The notes under the pieces were generated by a model. It did no database searches, had not been told where the DNA came from, and was given only the letters and a program-made list of their open reading frames with translations. A stretch of 33,040 nt of DNA. It comes from Lachnospiraceae bacterium (lineage in GTDB: Bacteria > Bacillota > Clostridia > Lachnospirales > Lachnospiraceae). Within the stretch, counting starts at the first letter, position 1; every line of letters starts with the position of its first letter. Of this stretch, positions 976-31,955 are shown one piece after another. Made by a program: the position numbers and the translations under genes. The DNA lies in the NCBI GenBank assembly GCA_029338875.1, contig JAQYBF010000114.1:1-33040 (forward strand). The letters are read 5' to 3'.

Positions 976-1174
976 AACGTTACTCCTTTGTGATGGACAG
1001 TTCCCTATAATAAAGCTGTGGGTGTCATAAGTAGAATAGCTGGATCGCCTGACATGTATGAGCTCTGACGGTCCTATTATTTATGATATCTTTTCCCCAA
1101 TGTAAAATAAAGCCCGGGTTGGCCGGGGCGGAAAGCTATATGCAAAAGGTGTTTTTTCGGGTACAATATATTAT

Positions 1175-1375
1175 GCCATGAAGGAAGCAGTAAAGGACCT
1201 GGTTCCCTTCCGGGGATAAGCCTTAAAGCTAGTTCTTTGTGAATAAAATGCTGCAGGAGTCCATCGGGCTATGCCCGCATGGGCTCTTGTATGGTCCGGG
1301 AAAGGAAGGCCTGCGCGAGTCAGGCGGTTTGATTGCAAAACCGGACAGGTCTGTCAGGAAATTAGTTTGAATCAG
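1175..1375 (+). ncRNA. Candidate structured RNA (class not assigned) or long structured 5' leader of the FAD-oxidoreductase gene
   Basis: Intergenic. Possible -10 TACAAT at 1162-1167. Multi-helix layout: closing stem GGACCTG(1195-1201)/CAGGTCT(1346-1352); long hairpin CAGGAGTCCATCGGGC-TAT-GCCCGCATGGGCTCTTG (1254-1289); GCCTG/CAGGC (1309-1325); CGGTTT/AAACCG (1325-1343); local hairpin GGTTCCC-TTCC-GGGGATAAGCC (1201-1222). Confidence 0.55.
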
Positions 1376-21642: not shown

Positions 21643-21694
21643 GACCGGAAAAATATTCCGGAAGAGAGTTCCGGAAGAACATTCCGGAAAATAT
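21643..21694 (+). repeat. Tandem 13-bp array with palindromic TTCCGGAA core
   Basis: Four in-register units: GACCGGAAAAATA / TTCCGGAAGAGAG / TTCCGGAAGAACA / TTCCGGAAAATAT, cores starting at 21643, 21656, 21669 and 21682. Confidence 0.75.
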
Positions 21695-25740: not shown

Positions 25741-25756
25741 GTAGGTTCGCAGAGAG

Positions 25757-25806
25757 AAGCACATTTTTCCTGATTGATTTCAAGAAAAATGTGCTTTTCG
25801 TTTCCA
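25757..25806 (+). terminator. Rho-independent terminator after the GH36 gene
   Basis: AAGCACATTTTTC ... GAAAAATGTGCTT perfect 13-bp stem (25757-25769 / 25784-25796), 14-nt loop, followed by TTCGTTT. Confidence 0.75.
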
Positions 25807-31921: not shown

Positions 31922-31955
31922 AAGGCCATCGGGGCAGGCCCCCGATGGCCTTTTT
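31922..31955 (+). terminator. Rho-independent terminator of alaS
   Basis: GGCCATCGGGG-CAGGC-CCCCGATGGCC perfect 11-bp stem followed by TTTTT. Confidence 0.93.

Follow-up and report, generated by a model that had tools for sequence, protein, structure and literature searches.

The question raised by this locus was whether the roughly 200 nt at positions 1175-1375 encode a structured RNA, and of which kind. The window (the whole stretch of DNA that was analysed, 33,040 nt) is contig C114, part of a 2.07-Mb draft genome. A NAD(P)/FAD-dependent oxidoreductase of 494 residues is encoded downstream of the segment on the + strand (1395-2879; Pfam FAD-depend_C, 2.3e-10, and Pyr_redox_2, 2.4e-8) and is followed by a gene for a Y-family DNA polymerase. 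The other flank is an HD-domain gene on the - strand (112-975), divergent from the FAD gene. The nearest named relatives of the FAD protein came mostly from Lachnospiraceae assemblies. The segment is best read as the untranslated 5′ leader of the mRNA for the FAD oxidoreductase, with a predicted length of about 220 nt from a TACAAT box to the gene.

The TACAAT box resembles a -10 element and lies at 1162-1167 (+ strand), giving an expected transcript start near 1174. An earlier note on this DNA had placed the beginning of the segment near such a box, which was also found in the leader of a second species of the same genus (G004). The -35 element is weak (TATGCA, spaced 17 nt from the box), and the box was absent from the list returned by a consensus promoter scan. 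As read from the alignment, 38 of 41 positions in the surrounding block (about 1130-1170) are identical in G004; the baseline, taken from fourfold-degenerate sites of the downstream gene, is 79% identity. The two genomes share this block on the promoter side as well as the divergent HD gene. The hairpin described below would be transcribed from this box.

An open frame of 13 codons (MKEAVKDLVPFRG*, 1178-1219, + strand) was considered as a leader peptide whose translation would alter folding of the downstream leader. A frame of the same length is open in G004, with a GTG start; however, its 83% identity is near the neutral baseline (~79%), and four of the seven differences alter a residue or the start codon. 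Its start lies a few bases past the expected transcript start and is preceded by no Shine-Dalgarno sequence. The frame was rejected as a gene on these grounds, and control of the FAD gene through such a peptide is very improbable.

The Shine-Dalgarno sequence of the FAD gene itself is AGGAG (1385-1389, + strand). Its first four bases are mostly unpaired in the predicted ensemble, with pairing probabilities of 0.13-0.30 at 1385-1388 and 0.82 at 1389. A terminator scan of the leader found no + strand terminator with a proper U-run upstream of this site, as had been supposed from the sequence beforehand; the single + strand match (1309-1325) has a mixed tail.

Known RNA families were then compared. 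No Rfam match at gathering score was obtained in the whole window, and a cmscan-type comparison of the surroundings of the segment (1000-1500) with the 4227 families of Rfam 15, a check proposed in the earlier note, returned no meaningful match at E up to 10. Neither of the two widespread RNAs named there as candidates is borne out: raiA gave no match at E up to 10, and 6S RNA (RF00013) is excluded on present evidence, with no match in 1000-1500 and with a 6S gene of its own, above the cut-off, elsewhere in the same genome (G000, C109:3581-3761, 56.4 bits). Known riboswitch classes were rejected in the same way, no covariance model matching. The segment is like 6S RNA in length and in having a long imperfect duplex, but the 6S duplex opens into a central bubble resembling an open promoter, whereas the stem found here is continuous, and unlike 6S RNA the segment continues into a gene with no terminator in between. 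The raiA motif and other Firmicutes leader RNAs in Rfam are likewise structured intergenic segments of ~200 nt; the present one matches none of them. The G004 leader gave only a microRNA-precursor match far under the cut-off, which simply reflects its long hairpin. No tRNA or tmRNA was found in the window, and a search for a plasmid origin gave no match.

Folding energies predicted for the leader ranged from -75 to -81 kcal/mol with the choice of ends. Compared with dinucleotide shuffles, the ~200-nt segment gave a moderate z-score (-2.2 to -2.5), and 7.8% of the 200-nt stretches in the same window matched the score of 1175-1374, so that the closed domain of four or more hairpins described in the earlier note is not beyond chance. 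Its closing stem (GGACCTG, 1195-1201, with CAGGTCT, 1346-1352) was not confirmed, having a probability of 0.008 in the full leader (1172-1394) and reaching 0.93 only when the RNA was cut to 1185-1360. The 3′ part of the leader (1292-1375, + strand), including the CAGGTCT arm, forms alternative local stems with competing pairings, and it has no counterpart in G004, the only homologous leader.

The core feature is a single hairpin, P2 (1252-1291, + strand), of 18 bp with one bulged C, with pair probabilities of 0.99-1.0 in the core. It corresponds to a helix previously given as 16 bp with one bulge, which was thus confirmed in kind and revised in length. The proposal of a structured leader therefore stands for P2, which is kept in the second species with strand-asymmetric pairing, and not for the remainder of the fold. 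No other 60-nt stretch on the + strand of the 33-kb window is as stable as the one that contains it (1251-1310), and the folding energy of P2 is -29.2 kcal/mol on the + strand versus -18.1 kcal/mol on the - strand.

In G004 the downstream protein is 95% identical to the FAD protein of the window, and the two leaders can be aligned well between the promoter block and the point where the hairpin loop begins. The P2 stem of G004 has its bulged C at the same place and is extended to 49 pairs with few interruptions, forming a near-perfect hairpin of 108 nt (L126:1594-1701, - strand of that contig). For a leader duplex this is unusually long, and it stands immediately upstream of the ribosome site. 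The G004 leader folds with z = -7.3, and its hairpin has an energy of -76.2 kcal/mol on the + strand versus -36.9 kcal/mol on the - strand. Every change in the P2 stem between the window and G004 is one-sided and keeps pairing. Of the pairs in the G004 hairpin 13 are G-U, and there is a single C/A mismatch. Under unselected decay of a DNA palindrome, in which transitions yield G-U and A-C equally, this imbalance has p = 0.0009, the true value being somewhat higher since a minimum-energy fold favours G-U. Together with the far better fold of the + strand, the imbalance points to RNA-level constraint on P2 in the direction of the gene, as judged from sequence comparison and modelled folds.

The main rival is a neutral inverted repeat, that is, a non-functional local inverted duplication which arose between genes in an ancestor of both species and lies in the leader by chance. 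It would account for the very different arm lengths (18 versus 49 bp) and for the near-baseline identity of much of the leader, and it remains a serious rival because only two species have the hairpin and other members of the genus lack it. The excess of G-U over A-C in G004, the large strand asymmetry of folding and the preservation of pairing by changes between the species argue against it, and we consider it unlikely, though by no means negligible. A mobile or dispersed repeat was rejected, neither genome having a second copy. A pattern of 18 bases from the hairpin also matched three viral contigs, none of which matched the covariance model; the first has the stretch within an open frame, and no ATGGGCTC arm occurs at hairpin distance in the second or third. 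These matches were taken as chance.

The hairpin and the Shine-Dalgarno sequence are ~94 nt apart in the window and ~10 nt apart in G004, which means that the hairpin does not keep a fixed position relative to the ribosome site. The short distance in G004 also bears on whether the hairpin belongs to a free small RNA with its own promoter instead of a leader. A stable hairpin that follows a conserved box would suit such an RNA, but in G004 a separate gene would have no space in which to end, a terminator before the gene is missing, and 6S RNA is located elsewhere in the genome; a free RNA is accordingly improbable.

A DNA search of 61 genomes returned one homologous leader, that of G004. The FAD protein of a third genome, G006, is 91% identical and its gene has a similar Shine-Dalgarno sequence (ACAGGAGT), but the upstream DNA is different and the leader absent, which indicates that the gene does not need the leader. 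The genus members examined other than G004 either have differing DNA upstream of the gene, as in G006, or yielded no close orthologue of the FAD protein (G002 and G005). A covariance model built from the two leaders refound both source sequences and yielded no credible third copy in 397 genomes of the family, no credible further copy in 39 relatives with laxer filters, and none when 80 loci with more distantly related FAD genes were scanned. Matches of 19-26 bits in other genera were rejected, the sequence or pairing of P2 and of the 5′ helix described below being unconvincingly kept. Upstream of 41 related FAD genes no hairpin was as stable as those of the window and G004, the start-site pattern having parsed half of the loci. 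Covariation is thus based on only two sequences in the searched sets. With one other carrier among the genomes searched, a widespread new RNA class is unsupported, and the evidence for a new class of any kind is weak.

A tentative helix in the 5′ part, P1, was obtained with RNAalifold from these two sequences (1191-1239, + strand; 1191-1202 paired with 1229-1239, with an apical hairpin of 1204-1208 and 1212-1216). It is weak and overlaps the 13-codon frame. Three of its pairs are changed on both sides and none is broken; its energy and double changes were attained by 0.2-0.35% of column shuffles and by 2.8% of random mutations of the window sequence. P1 is ~10 kcal/mol worse than the competing fold of each sequence, has a thermodynamic probability of ~0 in both full leaders, and is mutually exclusive with the stable folds. 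We regard it as suggestive, a lead from modelled pairing and not a result.

Two readings follow from P1. One is a riboswitch or other ligand-sensing leader, in which P1 and the stronger competing folds would be two states and P2 would form part of the expression platform. The three double changes without a broken pair, their rarity in the randomised controls (0.2-2.8%) and the exclusion of P1 by stable folds are consistent with it. However, no Rfam class matches, P1 lies far below its alternatives in stability, and nothing resembling an expression platform was seen, the terminator being absent and the Shine-Dalgarno sequence largely free. Aptamers of riboswitches are normally widespread, and here a single relative carries the leader, so that a ligand-sensing function appears quite unlikely. 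The second is a lineage-restricted regulatory RNA of two stems, in which a covarying P1 would switch against stabler folds and a fast-changing P2 (18-49 bp within one genus) would set expression of the redox enzyme; this, too, we consider quite unlikely.

Our preferred reading, held tentatively and somewhat short of probable, is that the hairpin at 1252-1291 is a lineage-restricted leader element acting in cis on the FAD mRNA, most likely as an RNase III site or a barrier to decay. Control of decay or processing is the simplest function for a long leader duplex here, because the leader has no terminator and its ribosome site is mostly free. The double strand of P2 would be recognised by RNase III, or would obstruct decay by its structure, and in this way the hairpin could set the amount of FAD-oxidoreductase mRNA available for translation. 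Action of RNase III, or of some other nuclease, on the hairpin is inferred, as is the direction in which the mRNA would be affected. Each of the two genomes has a gene for RNase III. A leader target of this enzyme needs an RNA duplex of ~20 bp or more; the duplex has 18 bp with one bulge in the window and 49 pairs in G004. Restriction to two species, the absence of the leader from G006 and the variable distance to the Shine-Dalgarno sequence weigh against cis-acting control of decay.

In E. coli, rnc and pnp are established cases of autoregulation in which the leader acts through mRNA decay, which favours the reading; direct mRNA targets of RNase III in B. subtilis have been described as limited in number, which counts against it (PMC3997798). 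Like the pnp and rnc leaders, the present one carries, ahead of the ribosome site, a duplex presumed to affect decay of the mRNA. It differs from them in organism and gene and has no sequence relation to them, and cleavage of P2 by RNase III is putative. Whereas pnp and rnc regulate themselves, the FAD gene gives no sign of autoregulation since it does not encode a nuclease. If real, the element would lengthen the list of cis-acting RNAs of narrow range in Lachnospiraceae, a family that has been little studied. It would also illustrate how a leader hairpin can change rapidly in length with its RNA pairing kept by G-U wobbles; the present evidence opens no new RNA class.

Other sites were noted elsewhere in the window. 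A perfect 13-bp hairpin with a U-run (31922-31952), after the alanyl-tRNA synthetase gene, is an ordinary terminator and received a weak score with the leader covariance model. A terminator-like hairpin of 20 bp lies at and beyond the end of an alpha-galactosidase-like gene (25754-25799). Between glycosyltransferase-like and transporter genes, short tandem TTCCGGAA palindromes (CCGGAAAAATATTCCGGAAGAGAGTTCCGGAAGAACATTCCGGAA) at 21645-21692 possibly represent a repeated operator site.
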